64,000 nucleotides of DNA. It comes from Erythrobacter litoralis HTCC2594 (GTDB lineage Bacteria > Pseudomonadota > Alphaproteobacteria > Sphingomonadales > Sphingomonadaceae). Location of the stretch: positions 935,501 through 999,500 of the forward strand of contig NC_007722.1 of the NCBI RefSeq assembly GCF_000013005.1. Reading direction: 5' to 3'. Made by a program: the position numbers and the translations under genes. The notes below the pieces were generated by a model. The model did not search any database. It was not told the origin of the DNA and was given only the letters and a program-made list of their open reading frames with translations. Positions 10,754-24,920 of the stretch are shown here, piece after piece (within the stretch, counting starts at the first letter, position 1; the number at the start of each line of letters is the position of its first letter).

Positions 10754-10761
10754 TGCCAGTA

Positions 10762-11774: not shown

Positions 11775-12184
11775 GCTTTTTCTCCTTTGTGCATCATGGT
11801 CCAGAATAGCTGCGCCGAGCAGCTGATGAGAGCGAAGCCGGTGAGGGCCTCGACGCCGGCCAGGACTCTCAGGTGCTCGGTCGGATAAATGTCGCCCAGG
11901 CCCAGTGTGGTCACGTTGATGAGCGAGAAATAGAAGTAGTCCATCCAGTCCATGGAAGGCGCCTTGTCGAAACCTCCCAGGCCCCATTGCGCGCCCAGCC
12001 AGAAACCTGCGGCAAAAAGGATCGCCACGAGGAAATGCGACGCGAGCACGAGCAGCGAAACGGCAAGCTTTGCCTGCGTATCGCGGCGCCGGTCGAGAAG
12101 CCGGTGACCGACACCCAGAATGGCAAGGTGCGAAGCGACAGCCGAGAGGAACAGAAAGACGGAGAGAAGGAGCGCGGTGATCAT
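11771..12184 (-). CDS. Two-helix ion-channel (Ion_trans_2-like) protein
   Basis: 137-residue membrane protein with N-terminal helix ITALLLSVFLFLSAVASHLAILGVG, a second helix, and a pore-type segment FYFSLINVTTLGLGDIYP before the last helix. TLGLGD resembles the potassium filter TVGYGD with changed residues, as in the small Ion_trans_2 family. Potassium selectivity is therefore not certain. The start at 12184 overlaps the upstream stop as ATGA, and its own stop overlaps the DUF305 start, so it is tightly coupled in the middle of a five-gene operon. A role in ion balance under metal stress is inference from context. Confidence 0.8.
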   Translation of the reverse strand: MITALLLSVFLFLSAVASHLAILGVGHRLLDRRRDTQAKLAVSLLVLASHFLVAILFAAGFWLGAQWGLGGFDKAPSMDWMDYFYFSLINVTTLGLGDIYPTEHLRVLAGVEALTGFALISCSAQLFWTMMHKGEKA

Positions 12185-12930
12185 GCGAGAAGCTTCGCGC
12201 CCATCCACAGACCCATTCCGATCATGAACAGATTTTCGGTCAGCGAGACAAAGCCGAGCGGCACATTGCTGCTGCCGCCCACGCAGGCGCATTTAAGCTC
12301 GCGCTTGTCGATGTAGACAGCCTTGAAGACGCTGACAGCGCCGACTGTGCCGATGAACAATGCCAGCGGGGCCGAGAGCCAGGTCAGCGCGCCCGCGGTC
12401 ATGAGAATGCCGGCAGCGGCTTCGCCGAACGGGTAGACGAAGCCATAGGGCACCCAGCGCCGTGCGAGCAGGTCGTAGTTGAGGAACATCGTCGAGAAAC
12501 TGCGCACGTCCTGAAGCTTCTGAACGGCGAGCAGGGTCATCGACAGGCTCACGAACCATTCTGCGGCCCGGACAGTGAAGAGGTCGTCAAAAAACGCCCA
12601 GCTCAGCCCTAGCGCGAGCAGCAGCGCGACCGCGAAAATCGCAATGACCGGCTGATAGCTGGTCTCGCCTTCCTCTGGCTGCGAACGACTCTTGCCGAAG
12701 AACTCGCGGACATCGTCATAGCCGCCAATGCGCTTGTCTTCGATAAAGGTCTGCGGGGTGGTCTCGACGTTGTGCTTGTCCTTGAATGCGTCGGTTTCCT
12801 CCCTGCTGGTCAGGTGATGATCCTCGACCTCGAAGCCTTGCCGTGTGAGGAGATCGACCGTCTTGATGCCATAGGGACAGACATGGTCCTCCATGACCAT
12901 ACGGTAGACCGCCGCTGTTCGGGTCGTCAT
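12181..12930 (-). CDS. Glutaredoxin-MauE/DoxX-like membrane fusion
   Basis: 249-residue fusion. Residues ~1-85 are a glutaredoxin-like domain with CPYG active motif (EDHVCPYGIKTVDLL) and the TTPQTFIEDKRIGGYDD signature of the glutathione/cis-Pro side. Residues ~95-249 are four helices of the MauE/methylamine-utilisation type with the pair CAC (ELKCACVGGSSNVPLGFVSLTEN). MauE-like proteins move disulfides across the membrane, so the fusion may pass thiol electrons to the periplasm. ATG 12930 is preferred because TGGAG lies 6 nt before it; ATG 12942 is the alternative. The stop overlaps the ion-channel start by 4 nt. The gap to the upstream permease is 112 nt with no ECF-type promoter, so it is probably in the same operon. 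Confidence 0.85.
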   Translation of the reverse strand: MTTRTAAVYRMVMEDHVCPYGIKTVDLLTRQGFEVEDHHLTSREETDAFKDKHNVETTPQTFIEDKRIGGYDDVREFFGKSRSQPEEGETSYQPVIAIFAVALLLALGLSWAFFDDLFTVRAAEWFVSLSMTLLAVQKLQDVRSFSTMFLNYDLLARRWVPYGFVYPFGEAAAGILMTAGALTWLSAPLALFIGTVGAVSVFKAVYIDKRELKCACVGGSSNVPLGFVSLTENLFMIGMGLWMGAKLLA

Positions 12931-13042
12931 GAATCGCTCCATCTGTTTTGCCTGACGTTTCTCGTGCTCAACGCCGGTTTTCGGTGAACGGTTTCGAAAA
13001 AGCCCGGCGTAAAAGCGGCAAAGCTGGTTGAAGAAGGTGCCA

Positions 13043-14395
13043 TCACCTTTTCTCTCCTGACCCATCATCTTCAGGAGATGCGGGCGCTTCGGAATTGCGC
13101 GAGAGGTAGATCCATTCTCCCACGAAGACTGCGACGATGCCGATCGCCGCGTAGGCGACAACGGCAGGATCGCTGCGCAATTTGGCCGCGGTAAAGGCTG
13201 CGAGGACCACGCCATCTGCCGCGAGCGCTGTCAGAAGTATTGTTGCGCGCGCGCCGACTTCCTTGCGCAGGTGGCGCAGGACGCCCCAGTGAACCAGCAT
13301 ATCCATGACGAGGTAGAAGAAGGCGCCCAGCGAGGCGATCCTTGACAGATCGAACAGGACCGCAAGCGTCCCGGCAATGACCACCGTATAGACCAGCATG
13401 TGGCTGCGAATCCCGCCGCTCATGCCGAAATGGCTGTGCGGGATCATCTTCATGTCGGTCAGCATCGCAAGCATGCGCGACACGGCAAATACGCTCGCTA
13501 TCACGCCCGAAGTGGTGGCGGCGATCGCGATCGCCACGGTGAAATAGAAGCCCAGTTCTCCCAGCGCCGGACGCGCCGCAGCCGCGAGCGAATAATCGCG
13601 CGCCTCGACGATCTCGGATATGCTCAGGCTCGAACCCACCGCCACTGCGACAAGCAGATAGATCACGATGCAGACGGCTATCGAGATCATGATGGTTCGG
13701 CCGACATTCTTGTGCGGGTCAACGATTTCGCCGCCGCTATTGGTAATCGTGGTGAAGCCTTTGAAGGCGAGGATCGAGAAAGCAACCGAGGCGAGCAGGG
13801 CTTCTGCATTGGTCAGCGAAACGGACTGCGAAAATGCGCCTGATGAAAATCCGCTGGCCCAGATCGCCGCGACTGCGAACAGCGCGATACCGCCGATCTT
13901 GATGGCGGACATGATGAGCGAGAAGCCGCTTACCGACTTGTTGCCCGCTGCATTGACGAGATAGGCGAAGATGATGAGTGCAAGCGCTGCCAGCGAAACG
14001 AGCCACCCGCTGCTTTCGAGGCCAAACGGGCGCAGCGCGTAAGTCGCAAAGGTGCGGGCCACGAGGCTTTCATTGATGACCATCGACAGAGCCATCAGGA
14101 GCGATGCCGACGCGGCAATGACGCCGGGTCCGTAGGCCTTCTGCAAGATCATCGCGATGCCGCCCGAAGACGGCCATTTGTTCGACATCTTGATATAGCT
14201 GTAGGCCGCCAGCGAAGTTACCAGCGCGCCGGCGATGAAAGACAGGGGGAAGAGCGGACCGGCGAGCTCGGCGATCTGCCCGGTCAGCGCGAATATGCCG
14301 GCACCGATCATGACGCCGGTACCCATCGCAACGCCGCCCAGCAGGGTTATCGAGCCAGCCGTTTCGCTTTGATTCTCGTGCTCATGGTCTTGCAA
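13043..14395 (-). CDS. APC-superfamily amino-acid permease
   Basis: 450-residue transporter with about 12 helices of the APC superfamily. The first helix GVAMGTGVMIGAGIFALTG carries the conserved G-[AS]-G-I-F substrate loop, and the region SILAFKGFTTITNSGGEIVDPHKNVGRTI matches the amino-acid permease consensus. The start is TTG at 14395 with AGGGG about 8 nt upstream; no in-frame ATG precedes it. It lies about 50 nt downstream of an ECF-type promoter element and is the first gene of a five-gene run ending at 10762. Substrate unknown; import of a Cys/His-type metal ligand or antiport of an amine is speculative. Permeases are not usual members of metal-stress regulons. Confidence 0.87.
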   Translation of the reverse strand: MQDHEHENQSETAGSITLLGGVAMGTGVMIGAGIFALTGQIAELAGPLFPLSFIAGALVTSLAAYSYIKMSNKWPSSGGIAMILQKAYGPGVIAASASLLMALSMVINESLVARTFATYALRPFGLESSGWLVSLAALALIIFAYLVNAAGNKSVSGFSLIMSAIKIGGIALFAVAAIWASGFSSGAFSQSVSLTNAEALLASVAFSILAFKGFTTITNSGGEIVDPHKNVGRTIMISIAVCIVIYLLVAVAVGSSLSISEIVEARDYSLAAAARPALGELGFYFTVAIAIAATTSGVIASVFAVSRMLAMLTDMKMIPHSHFGMSGGIRSHMLVYTVVIAGTLAVLFDLSRIASLGAFFYLVMDMLVHWGVLRHLRKEVGARATILLTALAADGVVLAAFTAAKLRSDPAVVAYAAIGIVAVFVGEWIYLSRNSEAPASPEDDGSGEKR

Positions 14396-14445
14396 GACTT
14401 TCCCCTGTCGATGGTCTCCCGTGAAAGAAAGATTATGTCGACCAG

Positions 14446-14472
14446 TACGTTCGCCCTTGCCGCGTCCCTCAA
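14446..14472 (-). promoter_or_regulatory. ECF-type promoter (element 3) for the permease operon
   Basis: Reading the minus strand: TTGAGGG (14472-14466), 16-nt spacer, CGTA (14449-14446). Four other copies with identical spacing occur in this region. The -10-like part is about 50 nt from the TTG start of the permease. Confidence 0.75.
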
Positions 14473-14607
14473 AAAACTTTCAGGACAAAGCCGGAGAGTT
14501 GCGTTTTGCTCGGGGCGCTCGAGCAAATTGCGGCCTAAAGCGGACTGCCTGCGCGACCGAAAAACGCTCCGCGAGTTTCAAGGCAAGCGGCCATCGCCGC
14601 CGATCTG

Positions 14608-14883
14608 CTACGTCCTGAATCGGTTCCGGAAAAATCGCAGCATTGGCACCCCAATGATCGCGATGTACCAACCGTACAAAAAGCTGCCGAGAGCGCCTGC
14701 CAGAAAGCCCGAGATGGTCAGCCATTCGAACCCGGGAAGCAGCGGCGCCCACGCTTCGTGCATGTGCGCCTGTTCGAGCGCGAGCAGGCCGAAACCGATG
14801 CAGATCAGGTAGCTGAAAAGCAGGAAGAGGCTGAGTGTCCAGCCCCATATCAGTATTGAGGTTTTGACCGAATAGTCCGACAT
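14608..14883 (-). CDS. DUF5676-type small membrane protein
   Basis: 91-residue protein with two long helices (LIWGWTLSLFLLFSYLICIGFGLL and ISGFLAGALGSFLYGWYIAIIGV) separated by an acidic/aromatic loop MHEAWAPLLPGFEWLT. The pattern LSLFLxxSYxxCxGF, the LLPGF loop and the YGWYxAxI end match the DUF5676 family, often found with copper and mercury genes. ATG 14883 follows ACGGAGGACC. It is 44 nt downstream of the DUF411 gene on the same strand, so it probably belongs to the methyltransferase-DUF411 operon. Function unknown. Confidence 0.82.
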   Translation of the reverse strand: MSDYSVKTSILIWGWTLSLFLLFSYLICIGFGLLALEQAHMHEAWAPLLPGFEWLTISGFLAGALGSFLYGWYIAIIGVPMLRFFRNRFRT

Positions 14884-14927
14884 GATGGTCCTCCGTTAGA
14901 GTTGGCGCGAAAATGGCTTGTCCATAG

Positions 14928-15395
14928 TCACGGGTAGGATGCGAACACGCTCCGCCCGCCTGGGCCGAAGGCGATGACATCATAGGGCTGCACCTGCTCT
15001 CCGACTTCCATTCCGGGCGAGCCAAGCGGCATTCCGGGCACAGCCAGGCCAGCAACGCCTTCGGGGCGTTCGCGCAATAGCTTCGCGACGGCATCGGCCG
15101 GCACGTGGCCTTCGATGATATAGCCATCGACTTCCATCGTGTGACACGACCACAGATCCTGTGGCACACCCTTGGCTGTCTTGAGCGCAGCCATGTCGTC
15201 GGTGTCGACCGAGGCGACCTCTGCTTCGAGCCCATGTTCGACGTGACCGGCCCAGCTGAGACAGCAGCCGCATCCTGCGTCGCGGAACATCGTGTAGGTC
15301 GCGGCCTGCGCTGCATTCGAGCAGGCTGCAAGGGCGAGGAGGAGCGAGGCCGCCAGCGAACGGCGTAGCGGTCTCGAATCTTTCGTGAGGTTCAT
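14928..15395 (-). CDS. DUF411 periplasmic metal-binding lipoprotein
   Basis: 155-residue exported protein of the DUF411 family, found in copper and silver resistance loci. The signal RRSLAASLLLALAAC ends in a lipobox. The mature domain has RDAGCGCCLSWAGHVE (CxCC metal site), the GVPQDLWSCHTMEVDGYIIEGHVPA block with CHT, and the Met/Pro-rich AVPGMPLGSPGME motif, all diagnostic of the family. The start ATG at 15395 overlaps the stop of the methyltransferase gene (ATGA), so it is coupled to it and sits under the minus-strand ECF-type promoter. It presumably binds copper in the periplasm; no biochemical role is established for certain. Confidence 0.9.
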   Translation of the reverse strand: MNLTKDSRPLRRSLAASLLLALAACSNAAQAATYTMFRDAGCGCCLSWAGHVEHGLEAEVASVDTDDMAALKTAKGVPQDLWSCHTMEVDGYIIEGHVPADAVAKLLRERPEGVAGLAVPGMPLGSPGMEVGEQVQPYDVIAFGPGGRSVFASYP

Positions 15396-16078
15396 TGGAC
15401 ATTGCCTTTCTTGATGCCGCGCCAGAGAGAAATGGTTCCGGTCGCGGTATGGATACGATCGAGCAATTCGGCGTCTGCGAAAATCTCGGCGAGCAATTTC
15501 TCGACGGCTCCGTCGGCGCTCGGCTGGGTGTCCTTCACGCCGTCGAGAAGCTGAACGCTCGAACGGAACAGCGCGCGCATGACTGGAGCATCCTGCCCCA
15601 TATAGTCGGCAATCAGCGCCATGCCCCCGGGGGCCAGAAGGTTCTCGATCTGCTCGAGGATCGCGCGTTTTTGCGAAACGGGCACCTGGTGAAGGACGAG
15701 ACTGCTGACGATCTTATCTGGTTGCCAGCCGTCGGAAAGCTCGAGACTGTCAAGAAAGCCGTTGTGCCACCGGACCATATCGACTCCGGCACCGAATTTG
15801 CGCTGCGCGATCGCCAGCGCGGCGGGGTCTGGCTCAACGCCGATGAAGCCGGCTTCGGGACAGCTGGCCATCAGCGCTCTGAGCAAGGTCCCGGTGCCGC
15901 ACCCGACATCGATGACCTTGTCGCCCGGCACCAATACGGCCTCTTCGACGATCGCGCGGCGCCACCGGCTCTCGCGCGTAAAGATTGCGATCGCGCGGTC
16001 ATAGAACGGCGTGAGCCAGCTTTTGCCCAGCGGCGGAGTGAACTCGCGTTCTTTTGACGGAACTGCCGCGCTTTTCAT
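15392..16078 (-). CDS. Class I SAM-dependent methyltransferase
   Basis: 228-residue cytoplasmic methyltransferase with motif I VIDVGCGTGTLL (~residues 54-65), an acidic end of beta-2 (GVEPDPAALAIAQRKF), motif DKIVSSLVLHQVP and LAPGGMALIADYMGQ. No arsenite-binding Cys set is visible, so it is not an ArsM. The closest general type is the ubiquinone/menaquinone-like Methyltransf_11/25 group; the substrate is unknown. GGGAG precedes the ATG by 8 nt. It is the first gene behind a minus-strand TTGAGGG-N16-CGTA promoter, back to back with the sigma operon, and overlaps the DUF411 gene by 4 nt. Confidence 0.85.
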   Translation of the reverse strand: MKSAAVPSKEREFTPPLGKSWLTPFYDRAIAIFTRESRWRRAIVEEAVLVPGDKVIDVGCGTGTLLRALMASCPEAGFIGVEPDPAALAIAQRKFGAGVDMVRWHNGFLDSLELSDGWQPDKIVSSLVLHQVPVSQKRAILEQIENLLAPGGMALIADYMGQDAPVMRALFRSSVQLLDGVKDTQPSADGAVEKLLAEIFADAELLDRIHTATGTISLWRGIKKGNVQ

Positions 16079-16134
16079 GCCATGGCTCCCATTCGACGCT
16101 GGTACATACCGCTGTTGCTACAGTTATCTCCTCT

Positions 16135-16161
16135 TACGCGTCGCCAACCCGCAGCCCTCAA
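16135..16161 (-). promoter_or_regulatory. ECF-type promoter (element 4) for the methyltransferase-DUF411 operon
   Basis: On the minus strand TTGAGGG (16161-16155), 16-nt spacer, CGTA (16138-16135). It is 57 nt from the methyltransferase start. Its -35-like part and that of the divergent sigma-operon promoter are mirror images 9 nt apart. Confidence 0.78.
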
Positions 16162-16170
16162 AAAAGAAAC

Positions 16171-16197
16171 TTGAGGGTTTGCGCGAAGTGTCGCGTA
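16171..16197 (+). promoter_or_regulatory. ECF-type promoter (element 1) for the cnrYXH-like operon
   Basis: TTGAGGG (16171-16177), 16-nt spacer, CGTA (16194-16197), 30 nt upstream of the anti-sigma start. This implies that the sigma factor activates its own operon. Confidence 0.8.
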
Positions 16198-16227
16198 TAG
16201 GAACCGTGCAACCGACAGGAGCAAGGG

Positions 16228-16524
16228 ATGCGTGAAAATCAGACACTCGATGCGATGCTCGGCACCATGGCCTCGCAGAAGGCTGGCGACGTGCCGCCCG
16301 ACTTCATGAACGGCGTCTGGCAGCGCGCGGGACAGCTTGGCGAAATTGCCGATCAGCGACGCAGAATGGCCTTGTTCGCCGGTCTGTTTGTCGTCGGGCT
16401 GGCAGCTGGCGCAGGGACCAGCGGATGGCCTTCCGAATATGGCGCTCCTACAGAAATTGTTGGCGAGAGCCTCGTTGGCGGAGAATCCCTGTCACCCGCT
16501 GCTTTGCTTCATGTGGGGTCATAG
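16228..16524 (+). CDS. CnrY-like anti-sigma factor (small single-span membrane protein)
   Basis: 98-residue protein with a soluble N-terminal ~46 residues (MRENQTLDAMLGTMASQKAG...DFMNGVWQRAGQLGEIADQRRR), one membrane helix (MALFAGLFVVGLAAGAG) and a short periplasmic tail. Size (CnrY is 95 residues), layout and gene order match CnrY of the Cupriavidus cnrYXH operon, where the N-terminus clamps the ECF sigma CnrH to the membrane. Sequence similarity cannot be tested here, so the call rests on order and topology. A good ribosome site (CAGGAGCAAGGG) precedes the ATG, which lies 30 nt after an ECF-type promoter. The next gene starts 4 nt after its stop. Confidence 0.75.
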   Translation: MRENQTLDAMLGTMASQKAGDVPPDFMNGVWQRAGQLGEIADQRRRMALFAGLFVVGLAAGAGTSGWPSEYGAPTEIVGESLVGGESLSPAALLHVGS

Positions 16525-16527
16525 GCG

Positions 16528-16962
16528 TTGAAGAAGTTTCACCTTGTCCTGGCGGTCCTGCTGGCGGCGCTCGCAGGATGTCTCGGAGCTTTTGCCGCCG
16601 ATCGCTGGGCCAACAACGATGCCGAGGGCAGCCTGCACCAGTTCGTGCACGATGAGCTGTCGCTCACGGCTGACCAGGAGCAGCGGCTCGATGCGCTCGA
16701 AGCGCGTTTCGCGGTAGAACAGGCAAGGCTCGAAGCCTCTGCGCGCGCAGCCAACGCCCAGCTCGCCCAGGCAATGGAAACCGAGCACGAATACGGGCCC
16801 GAAGTCAGTGCCGCGATCGACGAGGTGCATGCGCGCATGGGCGATTTGCAAAAAGCGACCGTGCGCCACGTCTTCGACATGCGGGAAATTCTCGATCCCG
16901 ATCAGCAGCTCCAGTTCGACCGGAAAGTGTCCGCGGCCCTCACGCGCGATCCGCGTGACTGA
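16528..16962 (+). CDS. CnrX/ZraP-like periplasmic heavy-metal sensor
   Basis: 144-residue protein with an N-terminal anchor (KKFHLVLAVLLAALAGCLGAFAADRW) and a periplasmic all-helical domain: HQFVHDELSLTADQEQRLDALEARFAVEQARLEASARAANAQL...DEVHARMGDLQKATVRHVFDMREILDPDQQLQFDRKV. The LTxDQ...LDPDQQ pattern and His residues (HQFVHDEL, HARM, RHVFDM) are those of the CnrX/ZraP heavy-metal sensor family, in which metal binding releases the anti-sigma hold. The start is TTG at 16528, 4 nt after the upstream stop. The Cys in LAGC could be lipidated. Copper is the likely signal given the target genes; nickel or cobalt cannot be excluded. Confidence 0.85.
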   Translation: MKKFHLVLAVLLAALAGCLGAFAADRWANNDAEGSLHQFVHDELSLTADQEQRLDALEARFAVEQARLEASARAANAQLAQAMETEHEYGPEVSAAIDEVHARMGDLQKATVRHVFDMREILDPDQQLQFDRKVSAALTRDPRD

Positions 16963-16968
16963 CCAGCC

Positions 16969-17535
16969 TTGGCAGCGGTGGATGACACTTCGAATGAAGC
17001 TCTGATCGGGCGGGCGATAGCCGGTGACAAGCGGGCGTTCACAGCTCTCGTCGAGAGCGAGATCGCCCGGTTGATTGCGCTTGCCACGCGCATGCTGGGT
17101 TCACCATCGCGGGCCGAAGATGTCGTTCAGGACGGTCTCGCGTCGGTCTGGCTGACTCGTCATCGCCTCGATCCGAGCAAGCCCATCGGTCCCTATTTGA
17201 CGACAATCGTTCTCAACCGGTGCCGCGACAGGCTCCGCCGCAGGAAAGTTATTGGCTTCCTTGGTTTGCCGGATGGGCGGGAAGCCGACGCCGTTGCCGA
17301 CGATGCTCCTAATCCCGAAAATGTTGCCGGAGCCCGCGAACAGCTGCGGCTGGTCCAGGCCGAAATCGGGCGCTTGCCGGTGCGCCTACAAGAGGCGCTC
17401 GTGCTGGTCACTGTCGAGGGGTACAGCCAGGCCGAGGCTGCCGAGCTGCTCGGCACCACCGAGAAAGCCGTCGAGACGCGCATCTATCGTGCGCGCAACC
17501 GGCTGAAGGAGCGGTTCGAAAAGTTTGAGGGGTAG
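16969..17535 (+). CDS. ECF sigma factor (CnrH-like)
   Basis: 188-residue sigma factor of the extracytoplasmic-function type. Region 2 reads LIALATRMLGSPSRAEDVVQDGLASVWLTRHRL, and region 4 LPVRLQEALVLVTVEGYSQAEAAELLGTTEKAVETRIYRARNRLKERF, which binds the -35 element. It is third in the anti-sigma/sensor/sigma order of cnrYXH. The start is a rare codon (TTG 16969 or GTG 16978), a few bases after the sensor stop. The -35-like TTGAGGG of the copA operon lies inside its last codons (KFEG-stop). It most likely recognises the TTGAGGG-N16-CGTA elements found at five places nearby, including its own operon. That pairing is inferred. Confidence 0.92.
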   Translation: MAAVDDTSNEALIGRAIAGDKRAFTALVESEIARLIALATRMLGSPSRAEDVVQDGLASVWLTRHRLDPSKPIGPYLTTIVLNRCRDRLRRRKVIGFLGLPDGREADAVADDAPNPENVAGAREQLRLVQAEIGRLPVRLQEALVLVTVEGYSQAEAAELLGTTEKAVETRIYRARNRLKERFEKFEG

Positions 17536-17551
17536 GGCAGGTGGCCGCGTA
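17525..17551 (+). promoter_or_regulatory. ECF-type promoter (element 2) for the copA-copB operon
   Basis: TTGAGGG (17525-17531) overlaps the last sigma-factor codons; a 16-nt spacer and CGTA (17548-17551) follow. The copA start is 32 nt downstream. Confidence 0.78.
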
Positions 17552-17583
17552 TGTGACGGTATACGCATTTTCAGGAGCCCCCT

Positions 17584-19395
17584 ATGCCTGCCCTCAATCG
17601 CCGAAAATTCCTTGGAACAAGTGCTAGCGGGCTGGGCCTGCTTGGCCTCTCCGGTGCCATGCCGGCCTGGGCGCGCGGCGCGGACATCCTGGCGGGTAAC
17701 GCTAGGAAAGGACTGGACGAGGTAGCGGGGCCGAATATCGACCTCACTGTCGCACGTTCTGCCTTCGCGACGGGTAACAGGCGCGGCGGCGCCATCGCCG
17801 TCAACGGCACGATCCCCGGTCCGCTGTTGCGTTTGCAAGAGGGCACGACCGTGCGGTTGAACGTTCATAATCAGCTCGAGGAAGATACCTCAATTCACTG
17901 GCACGGTCTGCTCGTGCCGTTCCAACTGGACGGTGTACCCGGCGTGAGCTTTCCCGGCGTCAAACCAGGCGAGACATTCACAGCGGAATTTCCCGTGCGG
18001 CAGGCAGGAACTTATTGGTGGCACTCGCATAGCGGGTTGCAGGAACAGGCCGGGCACTACGGCGCTATCGTGGTCGATCCCGCCGGACCCGATCCGGTGC
18101 AGGCCGACCGCGAATATATCGTGGTGCTGAGCGAATTCAGCGATATGTCGCCCCACACGATCTTCGACAAGCTCAAGAAGGGCGAAGGCTACTTCAACTA
18201 CAACCAGAACACCTGGACCGACGATTATCCGCTTTCGGGCGGGGACCGCCGGATGTGGGCGAGGATGCGCATGATGCCGACCGACATCCTCGATGTGTCG
18301 AGCGCTGCCTACACTTACCTCCTCAATGGTCACGGCCCGCTCGACAACCTGGAATATCTCTTCCGCCCCGGCGAGCGCGTACGCCTGCGCTTCATCAATG
18401 CCGGAGCCATGACCTTTTTCAATATCCGTATTCCCGGCTTACCGATGACTGTCGTGCAGGCGGACGGGAAGGATGTCGAACCGGTCGAGGTCGACGAGTT
18501 CCAGATCGGCGTTGCCGAAACCTACGATGTCGTCGTGACGCCGGGCGAGCAACAGGCTTACACGCTGGTGGCAGAGTCCATGGACCGCTCCGGCATGGGT
18601 ATTGCCACACTTGCGAGCACACCCGGCGCGCGCGCCGCCATACCTCCGCTGCGCGATCCCCCGCTGCTGACCATGGCCGATATGGGCATGAGCGGCATGG
18701 ACCATGGCTCCGGCGGCGATGCCGGCAAGACCGGAATGGACCACAGCAGTGGCGGTGACATGGCGGGAATGGACCATGGTTCGTCCGGCGATTCGGATAT
18801 GGCGGGCATGGCCGGAATGGCGGGAGGCATGCAGATGCGTGATATCTCGCGCTTGCCTCCCGATGTGAAGGTCGGACCCGGGCTAGACATGGTCTCGATG
18901 AACCCGGTCGACCGAATGGGCGATCCCGGCATCGGCCTCGCCGATGTCCCTCACCGCACGCTCGACTATCGCAAGCTCCGCTCGCTGACACCTCATCGGG
19001 AGGGCCGGACTCCCTCGCGGCGGATGGAAATCCATCTCACCGGGAACATGGAACGCTACATGTGGTCGTTTGACGGCAAGAAGTTTTCCGCCGTCTCCGA
19101 CGAGCCGATCCGGTTCGCCTATAACGAACGCGTGCGCGTGAAGCTCATCAACGACACGATGATGGCGCACCCGATCCATCTGCACGGGCACTTCTTCGAG
19201 CTGGTCAATGGCGCCCCGGCCGACCGTCAACCGCTCAAGCACACAGTTATCCTGCAGCCGGGTGGCAGCGCGCAGTTCGACCTGACGGCGGACGAGCCGG
19301 GCGACTGGGCCTTCCACTGCCACCTTCTCTACCACATGCATGCCGGGATGTTTCAGATTGTCACGGTTGCCAATCCGGACGGGAGCGAAGCATGA
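17584..19395 (+). CDS. copA: CopA/PcoA-type multicopper oxidase with His/Met-rich segment
   Basis: 603-residue periplasmic multicopper oxidase of the CopA/PcoA class, oxidising Cu(I) and binding several coppers. A Tat signal is present (LNRRKFLGTSASGLGLLGLSG). Copper-site motifs: IHWHGLLVPFQLDGVPGVSFPG (~residue 104), YWWHSHSGLQEQAGHYG, HPIHLHGHFFEL, and WAFHCHLLYHMHAGM (~residue 577). Between residues ~360 and 420 lies the family's Met/His repeat region (units of MDHGSGGD, MDHSSGGD, MDHGSSGD, MAGMAG). The stop overlaps the copB start by 4 nt. AGGAG precedes the ATG, 32 nt after an ECF-type promoter. It is the second multicopper oxidase of the window and of a different class from the one at 1371. 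Confidence 0.96.
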   Translation: MPALNRRKFLGTSASGLGLLGLSGAMPAWARGADILAGNARKGLDEVAGPNIDLTVARSAFATGNRRGGAIAVNGTIPGPLLRLQEGTTVRLNVHNQLEEDTSIHWHGLLVPFQLDGVPGVSFPGVKPGETFTAEFPVRQAGTYWWHSHSGLQEQAGHYGAIVVDPAGPDPVQADREYIVVLSEFSDMSPHTIFDKLKKGEGYFNYNQNTWTDDYPLSGGDRRMWARMRMMPTDILDVSSAAYTYLLNGHGPLDNLEYLFRPGERVRLRFINAGAMTFFNIRIPGLPMTVVQADGKDVEPVEVDEFQIGVAETYDVVVTPGEQQAYTLVAESMDRSGMGIATLASTPGARAAIPPLRDPPLLTMADMGMSGMDHGSGGDAGKTGMDHSSGGDMAGMDHGSSGDSDMAGMAGMAGGMQMRDISRLPPDVKVGPGLDMVSMNPVDRMGDPGIGLADVPHRTLDYRKLRSLTPHREGRTPSRRMEIHLTGNMERYMWSFDGKKFSAVSDEPIRFAYNERVRVKLINDTMMAHPIHLHGHFFELVNGAPADRQPLKHTVILQPGGSAQFDLTADEPGDWAFHCHLLYHMHAGMFQIVTVANPDGSEA

Positions 19396-20549
19396 AGACT
19401 TTCAATTTCAGCTTCTTCGCCTCCGTCGCAGCAGGTGCAGTCCTCGCTTCGCCCGCCGCAGCCCAGCATGCCGGTCACTCGCCGGCGGAGCCGCAGCAGA
19501 GCGCCGAGGCGCAGGCTGACGCCAAGGTAAAGTGCGAGGAGGAAGCCGCGCGCCATCGTGCGATGGGGCATCCGGTAACAGAGGGGGCGTGCGAACGTAC
19601 TGCCCAGCCTGAAGCTGCGATGGACCATTCGACGATGGATCATTCGCAGATGAATCACGGCGACATGGGGCAGGCGGAAGCCAGCAGCTCGTCGACAGAC
19701 CATGGGCAGATGGATCACAGCCAGATGAACCACGGGCAGACGGGATCGCAGGACATGCAGGGCATGGACCATTCGTGGATGCAGATGGGCTCGAACGACG
19801 ATATCCCGCTGCTGCCGCCTCCTCCCGAAGCCGGGAGCGGTCCCGCGCGCGCGGCGGTTGCGATCTGGGGCGAGGAAGCCATGAACGAAGCGCGGCGCGA
19901 ACTTGTACGCGAGACCGACGGCGGGATGCGCTTCTGGTTTCAGGGCGACCGGCTCGAATACCGCGCCCGCGAGGGAGCGGATGGATATCTTTGGGATATC
20001 CAGGGCTATTATGGCGGTGATATCGACAAGTTCTGGTTCAAGTCCGAGGGTGAAGGCAGCTTCGGTGAGCCTGTCGAGGGCGCCGAAGTCCAGGCGCTCT
20101 GGAGCCGGGCGATCGCTCCCTTCTTCGATTTCCAAGCCGGTGTCCGCCAGGATCTGACAGGGCCCGAGCGCACCCATGCGGTCATTGGAATACAGGGCAT
20201 TGCTCCCTACCAGTTCGAGGTAGACGTTGCAGCGTTCGTATCGAACAAAGGCAATGTGACGGCGCGTTTTGAGGGCGAGCTTGATCAGCGCATCACGCAG
20301 CGGCTGATCCTCCAGCCGCGTGCCGAAATCGCACTTTCGGTGCAGGATATTCCCGAACTCGGCATTGGCGCTGGCCTCGACCGGATCGAGGCAGGTCTGC
20401 GTCTTCGCTACGAGTTCGCACGCGAATTCGCGCCCTATGTTGGCGTATCCCAGGAATGGCGGATCGGTGACAGCGCCGATTATGCCCGCGCCGCAGGGGA
20501 AGACTCTAGCGTGACGAATTACGTCGTGGGAATTCGATTCTGGTTTTAA
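19392..20549 (+). CDS. copB: CopB/PcoB-type outer-membrane copper resistance protein
   Basis: 385-residue exported protein. After a signal peptide ending AAAQHAGH comes a His/Met-rich copper-binding linker (MDHSTMDHSQMNHGDMG, MDHSQMNHG, GMDHSWMQMG; residues ~75-140). The rest is a CopB beta-barrel domain starting near ARAAVAIWGEEAMNEARRELVRETDGG, with DRLEYRAREGADGYLWDIQGYYGGDIDKFWFKSEGEG, and ending in FW-F (VVGIRFWF), the aromatic terminus of outer-membrane barrels. It overlaps copA by 4 nt (ATGA). CopB is thought to bind or export copper at the outer membrane. Confidence 0.95.
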   Translation: MKTFNFSFFASVAAGAVLASPAAAQHAGHSPAEPQQSAEAQADAKVKCEEEAARHRAMGHPVTEGACERTAQPEAAMDHSTMDHSQMNHGDMGQAEASSSSTDHGQMDHSQMNHGQTGSQDMQGMDHSWMQMGSNDDIPLLPPPPEAGSGPARAAVAIWGEEAMNEARRELVRETDGGMRFWFQGDRLEYRAREGADGYLWDIQGYYGGDIDKFWFKSEGEGSFGEPVEGAEVQALWSRAIAPFFDFQAGVRQDLTGPERTHAVIGIQGIAPYQFEVDVAAFVSNKGNVTARFEGELDQRITQRLILQPRAEIALSVQDIPELGIGAGLDRIEAGLRLRYEFAREFAPYVGVSQEWRIGDSADYARAAGEDSSVTNYVVGIRFWF

Positions 20550-20565
20550 GAGAAGGAAATATACA

Positions 20566-21126
20566 ATGAGGACAAGACTATCCCTAAGCGCGGTCGCCCT
20601 GGCCTTGGCTGCAGGGGGCACTCCCGCCCTGGCACAATCCATGGACCATTCGGCGCATTCGGAACATTCGGTATCAACGCCGATGGACCATACGGAGCAG
20701 GGCATGAACCATGCCGAGCATATGGCTGCGATGAACGACGACGTCGCTGGGGCAGAAGCGGTTCTGACATCATATCGCGATGCCCTGACGTCGCGCGATG
20801 CAGAGGCCATGGCCGCGCTGTTTGCCGAGGAATCCTTCGTTTACGAAAACGGCAAGGCGGAAGGCAGCTTCACGCATTACATGGAGCATCACCTGGGACC
20901 GGAACTCGATGCAATAACCAGCTTCACCTTCGGCGAACCGACGCTCGCAGTCACCCGGATGGGACATATGGCTTATGGCCGCGAAACGTACACCTATCGG
21001 ATCGAACTGGCCGACGGCCGCGTAATCGACCGCGAAGGGGTTGCGACCTCGGTCCTCGCTCATGATGCAGATGGCTGGAAGATCGTTCAGTACCATTCAT
21101 CGTCACGCGCACCGCGTAACAACTGA
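20566..21126 (+). CDS. Periplasmic SnoaL/DUF4440-like (NTF2-fold) protein with His/Met-rich N-terminus
   Basis: 186-residue exported protein: signal peptide MRTRLSLSAVALALAAGGTPALAQ cut (about residue 24), then a His/Met segment (MDHSAHSEHS, MDHTEQGMNHAEHM) like that of CopB, then an NTF2-like domain (AVLTSYRDALTSRDAEAMAALFAEESFVYENGKAEGSFTHYMEHHLGPEL...RIELADGRVIDREGVATSVLAHDADGWKIVQYHSSSR). Such SnoaL/DUF4440 domains bind small ligands or act as isomerases, but here the MEHH and His/Met tail suggest copper binding. AAGGA stands 8 nt before the ATG, 16 nt after copB, so it belongs to the copAB operon. Confidence 0.85.
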   Translation: MRTRLSLSAVALALAAGGTPALAQSMDHSAHSEHSVSTPMDHTEQGMNHAEHMAAMNDDVAGAEAVLTSYRDALTSRDAEAMAALFAEESFVYENGKAEGSFTHYMEHHLGPELDAITSFTFGEPTLAVTRMGHMAYGRETYTYRIELADGRVIDREGVATSVLAHDADGWKIVQYHSSSRAPRNN

Positions 21127-21146
21127 TTTGATCGGGGGAACACCGA

Positions 21147-21881
21147 TTGGCGTTACGCTCTTTCAAGCTGCGTCTTCATGTGCTGGGCAGCAAGCTTCAC
21201 AAATGGCTGGCGATCTTTGTCGGCGTCCAGGTGCTCCTGTGGATGATCACCGGGGCGCTGATGTCGTTTCTCGACATCGAAGAGGTTCGGTCCGAACATG
21301 TCGTTTCGCGCGCGCCGGAGGTCCTGCCCGCTGATGCTGTCATGCCCCAATGGCTCGATAGCAGCGAGGGGGTGGTTTCCCTTGCGACGCGCGCGGTCGG
21401 CGGCAGGGCAGTAACCGAGGTCCGCCGGGACGATGGAAGCGTCACGCTCCGCGACCCGGATAGCGGGATGCTCCTCTCGCCCCTTCCCGCCGCGAGTGCA
21501 CGGGCCATCGCCCGACGTGCCTGGACCGGGCCATCGACCACCATAGCGACCACACGCCTCATCGAAGACGCTGTCGGGACCGAATTCCGGGGTCCGTTTC
21601 CGGCGTGGCAGATCACCTACGGCGATGAGGACAATACCCGCGTCTACATCGATGCATCGAGTGGCTCGGTGCTCGCTGCCCGCAGCGACACCTGGCGCCT
21701 GTTCGATTTTATCTGGGGGCTGCATATCATGGACTGGACGCAGCGCGACCGCATCAACAGCTGGTGGCTGCTACTGTTCGGGATCGGCGGGACGATTATC
21801 GCGGTTTCGGGCTTTGTCCTGCTTGCGAACCGGTTTCCCAGGATCAGGCGGCGGGCGAAACATGTGCCGAATGCACCCTGA
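21147..21881 (+). CDS. PepSY-domain membrane protein
   Basis: 244-residue protein of the PepSY-associated membrane family. An N-terminal helix follows LHVLGSKLHKWLAIFVGVQVLLWMITGALMSF (HKW...GALM is the PepSY_TM signature). A periplasmic PepSY-like part contains ITYGDEDNTRVYIDASSGSVLAARSDTWR, then a C-terminal pair of helices with LHIMDW. Family members are linked to reduction of metals or siderophores at the membrane. The start is TTG at 21147, with GGGGGAA upstream and 20 nt after the preceding gene. It is the last gene of the copAB operon; its partner is unknown. Confidence 0.85.
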   Translation: MALRSFKLRLHVLGSKLHKWLAIFVGVQVLLWMITGALMSFLDIEEVRSEHVVSRAPEVLPADAVMPQWLDSSEGVVSLATRAVGGRAVTEVRRDDGSVTLRDPDSGMLLSPLPAASARAIARRAWTGPSTTIATTRLIEDAVGTEFRGPFPAWQITYGDEDNTRVYIDASSGSVLAARSDTWRLFDFIWGLHIMDWTQRDRINSWWLLLFGIGGTIIAVSGFVLLANRFPRIRRRAKHVPNAP

Positions 21882-21894
21882 AGCCGCTCCCAGT

Positions 21895-22401
21895 TTAATC
21901 AGGTTCGGCTCGGGCAAAGCGGACCAGAAGGATCGTTAGCGCCGGCACGACCGTCCACATCGCGATCGGGATCAGCGCTAGTCCCGTCACTGGCTCGTGC
22001 GGCATCAACTCGCTGTAGCGCCAGCTCAGGAAACTGTTTGCCGGAAGCGATGTGGCGATCATTTCGACGGCGATTGCGACGACAAGCCCGAAGCCGAAAT
22101 AGACCGCATAGGGCATTTTGGCGGCTTGCCAGAGCCATGCGTGCCCGCCACGTAATGCTGCAAGGCTATAACCTGTCAGCAGGATCACGCCATCGCCCAG
22201 GCTTGCAATGCCGCAGCGAATGGTCCGCTCGAAGGGTTCGAGATCACCCGGCTCGAAGAATGGCATCTGGAAAATCTCCCAGACGAACGCGATCAGGCTC
22301 CCGCAAACAAAGATCAGCCAATGGGTCCTGGTCATGCTTCGGATACGCCGGAATGATGTGCGCAAGGAAATAGCAGCGGGCCGGAGTCCCACGTCCTGCA
22401 T
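21895..22401 (-). CDS. Four-helix membrane protein, family not recognised
   Basis: 168-residue protein with about four hydrophobic segments (THWLIFVCGSLIAFVWEIFQM, GVILLTGYSLAALRG, AVYFGFGLVVAIAVEMIAT, ALIPIAMWTVVPALTILLV). It shows no transporter motif known to me; WEIFQMPFFEP after helix 1 may be a metal- or lipid-facing loop. ATG 22401 has AAAGG 4 nt upstream; ATG 22335 (MTRTHWLIF) is a plausible shorter start. It ends 13 nt from the convergent PepSY gene and lies 27 nt after another small minus-strand gene, with which it may be co-transcribed. Confidence 0.65.
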   Translation of the reverse strand: MQDVGLRPAAISLRTSFRRIRSMTRTHWLIFVCGSLIAFVWEIFQMPFFEPGDLEPFERTIRCGIASLGDGVILLTGYSLAALRGGHAWLWQAAKMPYAVYFGFGLVVAIAVEMIATSLPANSFLSWRYSELMPHEPVTGLALIPIAMWTVVPALTILLVRFARAEPD

Positions 22402-22428
22402 AACGCCTTTGCTGCCCCAAAGCCTGGA

Positions 22429-22716
22429 TCAGTCACGGTCTTCGCGGCTCTCGGTCTTGGCCATGCGAGCAGCGCGTTCGAGAAATTTCCGCATGTCACC
22501 TGCTGCCAGTTCGGTAAGCGGATGTCGGCTCGCCTCAGGGCGCGGTTCGATCATGTCCGCTCGTTTCCTGATCTGTTCGATCTGTTCATCGCTCGCCCCG
22601 GACAAAAGGCCGAGAACTATGTTCTCGAGAGTTATGAGGCGAATGCGCATTTGCACCAGCTCGGCATGATCGGGCTCCGGGATATCCCAGCTGCCGTTCT
22701 CATTGACCGTGCTCAC
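22429..22716 (-). CDS. Small soluble protein of unknown function
   Basis: 95-residue, charged, mostly helical protein (VQMRIRLITLENIVLGLLSGASDEQIEQIRKRADM...LTELAAGDMRKFLERAARMAK) with no signal peptide and no family I recognise. The start is GTG at 22716, with GGAGAAG upstream at a suitable distance. It is the first gene of a two-gene minus-strand unit opposite to the copAB operon. The region upstream (22717-22858) shows no TTGAGGG-type element in this direction. Confidence 0.6.
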   Translation of the reverse strand: MSTVNENGSWDIPEPDHAELVQMRIRLITLENIVLGLLSGASDEQIEQIRKRADMIEPRPEASRHPLTELAAGDMRKFLERAARMAKTESREDRD

Positions 22717-22858
22717 GACTGCTTCTCCGACGGCTCTGCTGGCACCATGATACTCCCCATTCGTCGTTATCGGCTTCTCTCAAAAAGGTGGCCGAAAAAC
22801 AGCACCGCTGCAACCGGCCGTGCTTCGGCCCACCAGCCCCACCGCTGCTGCGGATTGT

Positions 22859-22885
22859 TTGAGGGGAAGAGATGGCGGCTGCGTA
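22859..22885 (+). promoter_or_regulatory. ECF-type promoter (element 5) for the His/Met-rich protein
   Basis: TTGAGGG (22859-22865), 16-nt spacer, CGTA (22882-22885), 54 nt upstream of the start codon. The gene has no other close promoter candidate. Confidence 0.75.
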
Positions 22886-22939
22886 AAGAGGATGAATGCA
22901 CACAGCATCCACCGCAAGACCGACGAAAGGAAATCGACC

Positions 22940-23329
22940 ATGAAACTGACAGTTCTAGCTTTCGCGCTCGCCACCGGCCTGGCAACCACCCCGGCAATGG
23001 CCCGGCAACAGCATGACCACGGGGATCAAGCGGCGGCGCAGCAGCAGTCACACGCTGGCCATATGATGCAGGATTCGGCGGCCATGACGGCCCACCGCGA
23101 GAAGATGGCTGAAATGCGCGCGCTGATGCAGCAGGCCCACGCGGCGAGCGATCCTGCCGAACGCCAAAGGCTTATGGCCGAACATCGTGCAAAAATGCAG
23201 GAACACATGGCGGGCATGATGCAGGGGGACAACGCCGATATGATGGCGGCCTGTCACCAGCACATGATGATGATGCATGACATGATGGAGCAGATGGCGG
23301 CTCACGAGAACATGGCGCAAGACGATTAG
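22940..23329 (+). CDS. Small His/Met-rich periplasmic protein (probable copper binder)
   Basis: 129-residue exported protein with a signal peptide (MKLTVLAFALATGLATTPAMA, cut near residue 21). The mature part is unusually rich in Met, His, Gln and Ala: QQHDHGDQ, HAGHMMQD, MAEHRAKMQEHMAGMMQG, and CHQHMMMMHDMMEQMAAHENM with a CHQH site followed by a four-Met run. Helical heptad-like spacing (MTAHREKMAEMRALMQQAH) suggests an alpha-helical hairpin. No known family is certain; it recalls CopK or Spy/ZraP-like periplasmic copper binders. AAAGG precedes the ATG. It has its own ECF-type promoter, suggesting high independent expression. Confidence 0.82.
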   Translation: MKLTVLAFALATGLATTPAMARQQHDHGDQAAAQQQSHAGHMMQDSAAMTAHREKMAEMRALMQQAHAASDPAERQRLMAEHRAKMQEHMAGMMQGDNADMMAACHQHMMMMHDMMEQMAAHENMAQDD

Positions 23330-23544
23330 GAGGCTGTGGCCGGGCTCTCGCTTTGTGCCTGAGCCTGGCCACACTCTTACCAGGGCGCGGTGCAAGGCAG
23401 GAGGCCCGACCATCTCGTGAGTAAAATTTGAACCCTCACGCGTGGACGAGCGCCGCGCTCTATCACCGCAAGAGATGAAGGTTCGCAGAGCCTTACAGAC
23501 ACAATAGGTTGCACGACCATCGCCAAGACCGGAGCCCGTAGAGA

Positions 23545-24216
23545 ATGAAACGAATACAATTCATGGCTATTGTAGCTGCCAGCTTGCTCTTCGTCGGACC
23601 AGTTCAGGCTCATGGCGACGAAAAGCATGGCGAAGAGACGAGCGCCGCGCCTGCCGCCGCGAATGGCGATGCGCATGACCATGCGGCCATGGAGCAGATG
23701 GGCGACGGCGGAGCGGTCGGCGAGCCCTCAGCCGCGCACGACGAAGCAAGTGGAGGCCATGACGAGGCTGGTGGCCAAGCTGATGAGGGCGATTCCGGCG
23801 TCATCGCCGTCCTGAAAAAACTGCATCCGGCGACCATCCACTTCCCGATCGCCCTGTTTCTCATGGCTGCTGCCACCGAGTTGTTCGTCATGCGCCGGAA
23901 AGATGCAGGGCTTGAGAGCGCGGTGCGCGTACTCGTCCACGGCGGAGCAATCGGCGCAGTCGTCGCAGTCCTGTTCGGATGGATCCACACCGGCCTTTGG
24001 TTCGGCGGCGATGCCGTCATGCAGGTCCATCGATGGAACGGGATGCTGATCGCGGTCCTCGGTCTGGCGATGGCCTATCTGGCGAGCCGTGCTTCCGCGA
24101 GCCGGACCGCGCTTCGCGCCGCAATCTTTGCCATGGCCGCTCTAGTGCTGGTGCAGGGATTTCTGGGCGGCGAGCTTGCGCACGGTGCCAATCATCTTGG
24201 TATCTCCTGGCTTTGA
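23545..24216 (+). CDS. DUF2231 membrane protein with His-rich N-terminus
   Basis: 223-residue protein: signal-like helix (MKRIQFMAIVAASLLFVGPVQA), then a His/Asp/Glu-rich periplasmic stretch (HGDEKHGEET, DAHDHAAMEQM, HDEASGGHDEAGG), then four helices of the DUF2231 type (KLHPATIHFPIALFLMAAATELFVM, VLVHGGAIGAVVAVLFGWIHTGLW, the RWNGML-containing helix, and LVLVQGFLGGELAHGANHLG). The HPATIHFP and GGELAHG motifs are family hallmarks, possibly heme- or metal-binding. GGAG lies before the ATG. No ECF-type element was found in the 215 nt upstream, so it may be independently regulated. Confidence 0.85.
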   Translation: MKRIQFMAIVAASLLFVGPVQAHGDEKHGEETSAAPAAANGDAHDHAAMEQMGDGGAVGEPSAAHDEASGGHDEAGGQADEGDSGVIAVLKKLHPATIHFPIALFLMAAATELFVMRRKDAGLESAVRVLVHGGAIGAVVAVLFGWIHTGLWFGGDAVMQVHRWNGMLIAVLGLAMAYLASRASASRTALRAAIFAMAALVLVQGFLGGELAHGANHLGISWL

Positions 24217-24224
24217 AGGATAGA

Positions 24225-24635
24225 ATGATGCGCAGATCGAATCGGAACGGGTTTGTTGCCCCCCTTGCTGCGGCGGCACTGGGGCTAGGGCTCGCTGCAT
24301 GTGATCAGACGCAGGACACTTCATCAGAAGCTGAAGCCTTGCCACTGTATACGGCCCCGCCGACCGAGAGCACAGGTCCTGGCGAAGGCGAAAGAGACAA
24401 CGCTGCCTCTCCCGCTGGAGAGGCCAACACGAACCGGTCGGATGAAGCTGTGACTGCCGGTAGGCAACCAGACCGACCGGCGAGCACTCCGGTAGTAGCG
24501 CCGTCTACTGCGGCCACTCCCCCGCCGATGAATGCGAAGCCTAGCGACACACCCGATCCGCATGCGGGCCACAATATGCCGTCCATGCCAGACCATGACA
24601 TGTCCTCGCTGTACGATCGGGCGGATGGTTCATGA
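24225..24635 (+). CDS. Lipoprotein with Pro/Thr-rich linker and C-terminal His/Met motif
   Basis: 136-residue lipoprotein: signal FVAPLAAAALGLGLAAC (lipobox LAAC), then a disordered linker rich in Pro, Ala, Thr, Glu, and a short end DPHAGHNMPSMPDHDMSSLYDR that repeats the HAGHNM/DHDM copper-type motif of the neighbours. Two ATGs are possible (24225, 24228); AAGGA is closer to ideal for 24228. It starts 8 nt after the DUF2231 gene and is co-transcribed with it. No catalytic domain is visible; it may display copper-binding residues on the membrane. Confidence 0.75.
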   Translation: MMRRSNRNGFVAPLAAAALGLGLAACDQTQDTSSEAEALPLYTAPPTESTGPGEGERDNAASPAGEANTNRSDEAVTAGRQPDRPASTPVVAPSTAATPPPMNAKPSDTPDPHAGHNMPSMPDHDMSSLYDRADGS

Positions 24636-24920
24636 CCTGGCGTTTCGCCTTCTGATCGGCCCGAAAACGGCCGACGCTCCTTTCACCTGTCACTACGAAT
24701 AACATGTCATCGTTTGCCAAAGGCGCTTTATCTCATCTGTCCGATTCTGGGGGTATTGATGGGGGTATTTGCGAGGTGATTCAAAAAGTTGATTAGGTAA
24801 ATCAGCATGTTATACGCTCCCTATATTTCCCTCCTCCGCTACCAATTTCCACGCAAATCATTCGTGCACGCTTGCCATAGCGGCGGCGCGTGTGGACTAT
24901 GCCAGGCGGGAGGGGCGTGG
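24636..24920. other. Gap at the accessory/core border, no gene seen
   Basis: 285 nt between the last copper-type gene and the acetate symporter genes. It holds a local AT-rich stretch and the direct repeat TGGGGGTATT (24748-24757 and 24760-24769). No tRNA, integrase or convincing small gene was found. This is where gene content changes from metal resistance to housekeeping. Confidence 0.6.
24748..24769. repeat. Direct repeat TGGGGGTATT x2, possible island-end mark
   Basis: Two identical 10-mers start 12 nt apart. From memory, similar GGGGGTAT repeats occur near the ends of tyrosine-recombinase islands in Proteobacteria. No tRNA copy or integrase is in view, so the link is weak. Confidence 0.45.

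Follow-up and report, generated by a model that had tools for sequence, protein, structure and literature searches.

Five copies of TTGAGGG-N16-CGTA in Erythrobacter litoralis HTCC2594 are, with a probability of nearly nine in ten, promoters for the ECF sigma factor encoded at 16969-17535 of the window (the whole 64,000-nucleotide stretch analysed, to which all coordinates refer). That sigma factor would be held at the membrane by a CnrY-like anti-sigma factor (16228-16524) and released when a CnrX-like sensor (16528-16962) binds periplasmic metal, most likely copper. Once free, it would read RAGGG-N16-CGTA and raise its own operon together with four further units: copAB with the DUF4440 and PepSY genes; methyltransferase-DUF411; permease-Grx/MauE-channel-DUF305-DUF6692; and the gene of a Met/His-rich protein. 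An earlier note on this DNA had proposed that the elements are ECF promoters, served by a cnrH-like sigma factor, in a single copper regulon of about 15 genes. That reading is the best supported one, by conservation, and the predicted genes under the five promoters come to about 16; sigma binding and dependence, the copper signal, release and the unit boundaries are what we infer.

The five elements and their genes

The five exact copies all lie within one 8.4-kb stretch, where the earlier note had placed them, and a scan of the whole 3,052,398-bp genome yields no others, nor does the genome hold any exact match to the reversed control pattern. When up to one mismatch is allowed the window holds 6 matches, whereas 100 dinucleotide shuffles average 0.52 and never exceed 2. 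The elements are listed here with transcript starts predicted by analogy with CH34 cnrYp and cnrCp.

16171-16197, + strand: promoter element 1, predicted to drive the anti-sigma/sensor/sigma operon from 16206
17525-17551, + strand: promoter element 2, predicted to drive the copAB unit from 17560
22859-22885, + strand: promoter element 3, predicted to drive the His/Met-rich protein gene from 22894
16135-16161, - strand: promoter element 4, divergent, predicted to drive the methyltransferase-DUF411 unit from 16126
14446-14472, - strand: promoter element 5, predicted to drive the permease-Grx/MauE-channel-DUF305-DUF6692 unit from 14437

The distances from CGTA to the start codon, for elements 1-5, are 30, 32, 51, 56 and 50 nt; the range of 30-57 nt given earlier is therefore correct. 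Elements 4 and 1 form a divergent pair with their -35 elements back to back and 9 nt between them, and element 2 overlaps the final codons and stop of the sigma ORF. The genes of the predicted regulon are as follows.

16228-16524, +: putative anti-sigma factor (Y), 98 aa, from position and architecture by eye, no Pfam or NCBIfam match
16528-16962, +: CnrX-like sensor (X) of periplasmic metal, TTG start (Metal_resist, PF13801)
16969-17535, +: CnrH-like ECF sigma factor (H), TTG start (PF04542, PF08281)
17584-19395, +: CopA multicopper oxidase (Pfam; TIGR01480)
19392-20549, +: CopB (PF05275)
20566-21126, +: His/Met-containing protein with a SnoaL_3/DUF4440 domain (Pfam)
21147-21881, +: PepSY membrane protein (PepSY_TM; Pfam)
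22937-23329, +: His/Met-rich protein, no Pfam or NCBIfam match
23545-24216, +: DUF2231 membrane protein, possibly in the unit of the His/Met-rich protein
24210-24635, +: lipoprotein-like protein, possibly in the same unit, no Pfam match
15392-16078, -: class I SAM methyltransferase
14928-15395, -: DUF411 protein
14608-14883, -: small membrane protein, DUF5676-like, no Pfam match
13043-14395, -: APC-type (amino-acid) permease, TTG start, start uncertain
12181-12978, -: glutaredoxin-MauE fusion within a longer open frame, start uncertain
11771-12190, -: two-helix ion channel
11247-11777, -: DUF305 protein
10762-11256, -: DUF6692 protein, lipoprotein-like

Pfam bears out the earlier naming of the sensor, sigma, copAB, DUF4440, PepSY, methyltransferase and DUF411 genes and of the permease-to-DUF6692 unit. 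The cnrY-like, His/Met-rich and DUF5676-like proteins have no Pfam match, and the last owes its label to an Aurantiacibacter plasmid, on which the aligned gene is annotated so. Co-transcription of the DUF2231 gene with the His/Met-rich gene is uncertain because a 215-nt gap separates them.

More distant members were sought among one-mismatch sites and rejected, these being no commoner in the genome than control sites (17 beyond the five versus 16). All but one of the 17 lie inside open frames of at least 100 aa (in any frame), and the remaining one has no such frame downstream. The regulon thus looks closed, as judged from the genome sequence: five promoters, some 16 genes and no credible distant member. 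One of the one-mismatch sites, at 1244-1270, falls within a CusF-like coding sequence (by eye), ~100 nt before a second multicopper oxidase gene. It is kept in the DNA of 6/6 relatives compared, with its spacer also near letter-for-letter the same, as expected of coding sequence.

Promoter layout and gene families in relatives

Around 80 homologs of the sigma gene (1.55 Mb) the exact motif occurs 145 times and the reversed pattern not once. The strict 16-nt spacing claimed earlier holds across these loci: with the same two blocks, spacings of 12-15 and 17-20 yield 0 or 1 site each, and 16 dominates completely. Taken over the relatives, the consensus relaxes to about N(T/C)(G/A)AGGG-N16-CGTA. 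Sites with at most one mismatch stand before the anti-sigma gene in 70 of the 80 loci (control 0), divergent from it in 70 (control 1), and where the sigma gene ends, ahead of copA, in 66 (control 0); such a site is missing from the sigma end in 14 loci and from each of the other two positions in 10. The same predicted promoter and gene layout is kept in many related bacteria.

Two counts based on open frames say less. Frames of at least 150 aa, in any frame, enclose 91 of the 145 exact sites versus 3427 of 4000 random positions, an intergenic shift in the expected direction on which we do not lean because frames in such GC-rich DNA are mostly spurious. For the same reason nothing is drawn from the finding that every one of the 145 sites has a frame of at least 60 aa within 160 nt.

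The genes behind the 145 sites fall into 13 clusters, each named from one representative. CopA is the first gene downstream of the motif in 46 of the 80 loci; the other first genes encode anti-sigma factor, permease, DUF2231, methyltransferase, Met/His-rich, CopC, DUF411 and P-type ATPase proteins. In 9 of the 80 loci an exact site precedes a relative of the His/Met-rich protein. By this naming the families are mostly copper-linked, and efflux-pump genes of the cnrCBA kind are absent from the 13 clusters.

The sensor and its metal

The sensor is similar to NccX (5.8e-20) and to CnrX, which its structural model also matches, and it has the CnrX fold with all five primary metal ligands (H42, H46, E63, H119 and M123). 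These ligands alone do not show copper, since CnrX has the same five and responds to nickel and cobalt (as summarised in PMC7689651); CnrX itself has also been crystallised with copper bound (3epv, by its title). Both facts favour a system that works as described but whose true signal is a different metal in the periplasm, or a stress (nickel, cobalt, silver or envelope damage), with copper as only one of several. We consider this unlikely. The copper-linked families behind the motif, with no cnrCBA-kind cluster among them, argue against it, as do the neighbours of the sensor genes: across the phylum, copA lies near 18 of 23 sensor loci and cnrC near 2, and those 2 sensors both lack the pair His106/Met109 (CnrX numbering; H101 and M104 in the sensor's own numbering). 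That pair is present in 99/99 copper-type sensor rows and in 0/63 CnrX-like proteins. (Three of the 80 loci, L102, L159 and L161, gave no row; two of 65 CnrX matches, P0184 and P0185, were short and were left out.) Searches for further nickel-type sensors gave a match in 1 of 369 genomes of the class of G396 at E<=1e-6, which is G396 itself once more, and in 1 of 289 genomes of HTCC2594's own class at E<=1e-20, at a locus with copA.

Where CnrX has Glu, Ala, His and Tyr, the sensor here has His106, Met109, Gln131 and Phe135. It is possible, and we put it forward tentatively, that an extra metal site around His106/Met109 (often with Glu91-His92) and the changes at 131 and 135 re-tuned an ancestral CnrYXH to copper, while a change of promoter spacing from 17 to 16 helps to separate nickel and copper circuits where both occur. 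The two sensor clades (the tree omits rows that are shorter than 120 aa or 90% alike) share their primary ligands and differ in gene neighbours, and so offer a clean pair for studying metal choice.

The sigma factor, other regulators and known systems

The 188-aa sigma factor has CnrH as its best PDB match (4cxf, 1.3e-25; the next family, SigE, follows at 6.1e-13), and no other homolog appears in the HTCC2594 genome at E<=1e-15. Its formal group may be ECF20 or the successor of that group. By eye, the putative anti-sigma factor consists of a short stretch in the cytoplasm, what looks like a single membrane helix and a periplasmic tail ending SPAALL. Of 32 relatives picked from the 80 loci, 31 carry the tail pattern (S/A)PxxLL, versus 0.4% of shuffles; CnrY, which ends SPFGLL, shares it. 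Against the PDB the protein finds chance porin matches only (E 1.6), and it escapes the NCBIfam CnrY/NccY model NF033790, which CH34 CnrY matches at 139 bits.

Another sigma factor or DNA-binding regulator might read the elements, the CnrH-like gene being merely a target; eight places in the genome do match the sigma region 2 family. This is quite improbable, however, because the motif tracks this particular sigma gene. It occurs 160 times in 149 family genomes (reversed pattern, 59), and 103 of 150 listed sites have a homolog of the sigma gene within 10 kb, 47 being away from one. Moreover, both blocks match the cnr promoters of Cupriavidus metallidurans, and none of 20 cluster proteins scanned with Pfam matches a response-regulator or repressor family (6 have no match at all). 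That the elements are alike through recent copying along with their genes, rather than through selection, is scarcely credible: the cluster is indeed ~90-98% identical in eight named relatives, but the exact sites comprise 72 clearly different 55-mers with widely varying spacers (the two blocks being searched as fixed), and the blocks and their positions are kept even next to sigma factors of only ~33-47% identity.

Promoters read by the CnrH-like sigma factor also fit the layout of CnrYXH and NccYXH, the CnrH-type ECF systems of C. metallidurans for nickel and cobalt. Gene order Y-X-H is common to both, as are promoters before Y and just behind H; the divergent third promoter is found here, unlike in cnr/ncc. 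The common RAGGG and CGTA blocks are drawn from two CH34 promoters, cnrY and cnrC of pMOL28, both of which read RAGGG-N17-CGTA, a spacing of 17 as against 16 in HTCC2594. Their published transcript starts lie 9 nt after CGTA, but that of cnrY is labelled RpoD-type in Table 10 of PMC11647585 and is therefore not pure evidence for CnrH. Behind the switch are copAB and copper accessories here and cnrCBAT in cnr; the cnrCBA efflux genes do not follow the HTCC2594 switch. The earlier note had thought the motif undescribed for this family. Among the papers screened by title and start of abstract, none dealt with the motif or with a CnrYXH-type copper regulon, but the two cnr promoters are a precedent for its blocks.

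Two copper-linked ECF systems are less close. CorE of Myxococcus xanthus is a copper-dependent sigma factor that, in the account given in PMC10141476, controls a multicopper oxidase gene, as predicted here; this ECF44 protein senses copper through its own cysteine-rich tail, without an anti-sigma factor. HTCC2594 has a separate sensor, and in its sigma factor, where the match to region 4 runs to residue 179, only 9 residues follow, with no cysteine among them and hence no such extension. SigAb-AabA-AabB of Acinetobacter baumannii, as outlined in PMC12153292, joins a copper-responsive ECF sigma factor to a small anti-sigma protein of the membrane that is compared with CnrY. There the sigma gene comes first, and the direct regulon is the system itself, relA and a small RNA, with no cop genes.

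Six genomes from five other genera have the sigma-copA stretch at 89-91% identity, and in the same six a 1.1-kb part of the presumed rpoD is 84-89% identical. The sigma gene is missing from two genomes of HTCC2594's own genus, where the only match is to a copA relative, at ~70-83%. Horizontal transfer is only suggested by these sequence comparisons.

The three-gene switch looks like the nickel switch CnrYXH re-tuned for copper. It would gather about 16 genes into a single predicted copper regulon, whose transcript starts are predicted to the base pair, and would bring in little-known members: DUF6692, DUF4440, DUF5676-like, methyltransferase and Met/His-rich proteins. The analysis also suggests that many sphingomonads and erythrobacters control their copper resistance through a CnrH-type sigma factor.

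Putative promoter sites in the window and in the host genome

The five TTGAGGG-N16-CGTA sites that the earlier note had placed in the window are all exact, and CGTA is separated from the start codons by 30, 32, 51, 56 and 50 nt (sites at 16171, 17525, 22859, 16135 and 14446, in that order), within the 30-57 nt that it had given. The sites and the units behind them are:

14446-14472 (-), 0 mismatches: permease, glutaredoxin-MauE, ion channel, DUF305, DUF6692
16135-16161 (-), 0 mismatches: methyltransferase, DUF411, small membrane protein
16171-16197 (+), 0 mismatches: sigma operon, with anti-sigma (98 aa), CnrX-like sensor and ECF sigma factor
17525-17551 (+), 0 mismatches: copA, copB, DUF4440/SnoaL protein, PepSY protein
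22859-22885 (+), 0 mismatches: Met/His-rich protein; a DUF2231 and a lipoprotein-like protein may belong to the same unit

With unit boundaries inferred from gene spacing, the regulon of about 15 genes proposed earlier becomes one of 16, or of 18 if the two uncertain genes are counted. Members of the CopA and CopB families act in copper oxidation and retention, and the Met/His-rich, DUF305 and DUF411 proteins are probable copper binders. The -35 block of the 17525-17551 site is encoded within the last codons and the stop of the sigma gene (F-E-G-stop).

The host genome is a single contig of 3,052,398 bases, in which the only exact matches are the five in the window and the reversed (control) pattern has none. 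Allowing one mismatch adds 17 sites, while the control gains 16; 16 of these 17 fall inside open frames (any reading frame) 100 aa or longer, and the remaining one has no such frame downstream. Being no commoner than the control and placed in this way, the one-mismatch sites indicate that the regulon detectable with this motif is the cluster alone. One variant, GTGAGGG-N16-CGTA at 1244-1270 (+), lies within an apparent CusF-like gene, ~100 nt before the gene of a second multicopper oxidase, whose ATG is near 1372; the site is conserved, spacer included, in six of six relatives. Another multicopper oxidase gene, far from the cluster (L197, G000:C1 about 2893463-2895199, (-)), has none of the genome's 22 sites (<=1 mismatch) nearby.

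Conservation of the sites among relatives

Eighty loci around sigma homologs (34-99% identical; the best 80 of 228 candidates from one scan of species genomes) contain 145 exact sites and no reversed-pattern sites in 1,546,871 bases. The strict spacing asserted in the earlier note is borne out: exact counts at spacings of 12 to 20 are 1, 0, 0, 0, 145, 1, 0, 0 and 0. The 145 sites comprise 101 distinct 55-mers, 72 of which differ from one another at >12/55 positions. Among these 72 the spacer is highly variable, with leanings to T at its second position (48/72) and G at its last (53/72), and an A/T-rich stretch lies upstream of TTGAGGG. Sites with <=1 mismatch recur before the anti-sigma gene (70/80 loci; control 0/80), beside it on the opposite strand (70/80; control 1/80) and at the sigma gene end (66/80; control 0/80), counts that are not of independent events, many loci being close relatives. 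Of 65 divergent pairs that could be recognised, 50 have their -35 blocks separated by 5-11 nt; the gap in the window is 9 nt. The looser consensus across relatives is N(T/C)(G/A)AGGG-N16-CGTA.

An exact match is present in 69, and a sigma homolog (E<=1e-15) in 83, of 149 family genomes, which total 160 exact matches against 59 of the reversed pattern. Of the 150 matches with listed positions, 103 have such a homolog within 10 kb; the other 47 are at about chance level, though a few may be real. Genomes G099 and G102 share a site ~22 kb from the sigma gene, with a spacer resembling that of the window site at 22859.

First frames behind the 145 exact sites (13 clusters; families named from one representative each), with numbers of loci
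CopA: 46
Anti-sigma: 25
Permease: 17
DUF2231: 16
Methyltransferase: 14
Met/His-rich protein: 9
CopC: 5
DUF411: 3
P-type ATPase with metal-binding domains: 2 (same contig)
Second Met/His-rich protein: 1
Frames at the anti-sigma position: 7 (apparent wrong-frame guesses)

Judged from these assignments, the copper theme behind the sites is constant while gene content varies. The P-type ATPase with heavy-metal-binding domains, whose gene follows an exact site at -4582 in L133 and L135 (one contig of Novosphingobium subterraneum), is a likely additional regulon member. Sphingomonad plasmids also bear sigma relatives of about 37-43% identity, among them L165 on plasmid pISP0 of Sphingomonas sp. MM-1; the one plasmid that was read has copAB behind the sigma gene, copCD adjoining and an exact site at the sigma end.

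The sensor and kinship with CnrYXH

The window system shares with CnrYXH its sensor fold, ligands, gene order and promoter blocks, and probably its mode of working. That it is itself a cnr/ncc nickel-cobalt determinant is ruled out, since the CnrY/NccY model does not match its anti-sigma and copAB replaces cnrCBA; CorE is likewise ruled out, its cysteine-rich tail being absent from the window sigma factor. We file the system as a copper-type sister of CnrYXH. Copper sigma factors already described in the literature include CorE and SigAb. Judged by titles and the openings of abstracts, the papers searched describe neither the motif nor a copper regulon of CnrYXH type; papers on ECF classification may contain a promoter logo for the group.

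A CnrX search of 398 phylum genomes yielded 23 sensor loci, spread over 17 genomes. Within the 3.4-kb locus copA is a neighbour in 18/23, cnrC in 2/23 and neither in 3/23 (L184, L194 and L195, of which the last two overlap and are incomplete). RAGGG-CGTA sites stand at the expected places in 20 of the 23, with spacing 17 in L173 (cnrC adjoining), L188, L191 and one of two sites in L193, and 16 elsewhere; spacing 17 is thus not limited to the nickel type. L174 (cnrC behind), L194 and L195 yielded no RAGGG-N14-18-CGTA site. L174 is a sensor locus of the same class, and its promoters may differ.

We aligned two sets of sensors. One comprises 63 CnrX-like proteins retrieved with CnrX and presumed nickel/cobalt-type from their likeness to it rather than from genomic context; the other comprises 99 sensor rows not adjoining cnrC (77 from the 80 loci and 22 from the phylum set, duplicates included and the window sensor twice). 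Both sets conserve nearly all of the primary ligands. At positions 106, 109, 131 and 135 the 99 rows carry His, Met, Gln and Phe (99/99), against Glu, Ala, His and Tyr in the CnrX-like proteins (63/63); Glu91-His92 is frequent, not invariant, among the copper-type sensors. A tree of 127 sequences separates the two sets into two clades (split support 1.0), so that the residue split represents one evolutionary event, by itself no proof of function. In the window sensor model residues 101 and 104 (equivalent to 106 and 109) lie on helix 91-121, as do ligands 114 and 118; helix geometry, rather than coordinates, suggests that 106/109 may form a site of their own at a distance from the primary one.

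Block structure and a proposed copper switch

Window positions of about 8538-24845 form a 16-kb block with 92-96% identity in six relatives (L083-L086, L089, L090), and two genomes of the host's own genus are without the sigma gene. The block looks mobile; no tRNA was found within the 64-kb window. Compared with 7206-24845, loci L087 and L088 are 98.4% identical over 7206-14472 and about 90-91% in later blocks. The first block stops exactly at the outer end of the 14446-14472 site and the last begins one base ahead of the 16171-16197 site; units may have been swapped at promoter borders.

We infer a switch in which copper in the periplasm would bind the CnrX-like sensor, which would then loosen the anti-sigma protein and so release the ECF sigma factor. 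Free sigma factor would activate its own operon and the four other units, and the separate promoter at the sigma gene end would allow copAB to rise apart from the sigma operon.
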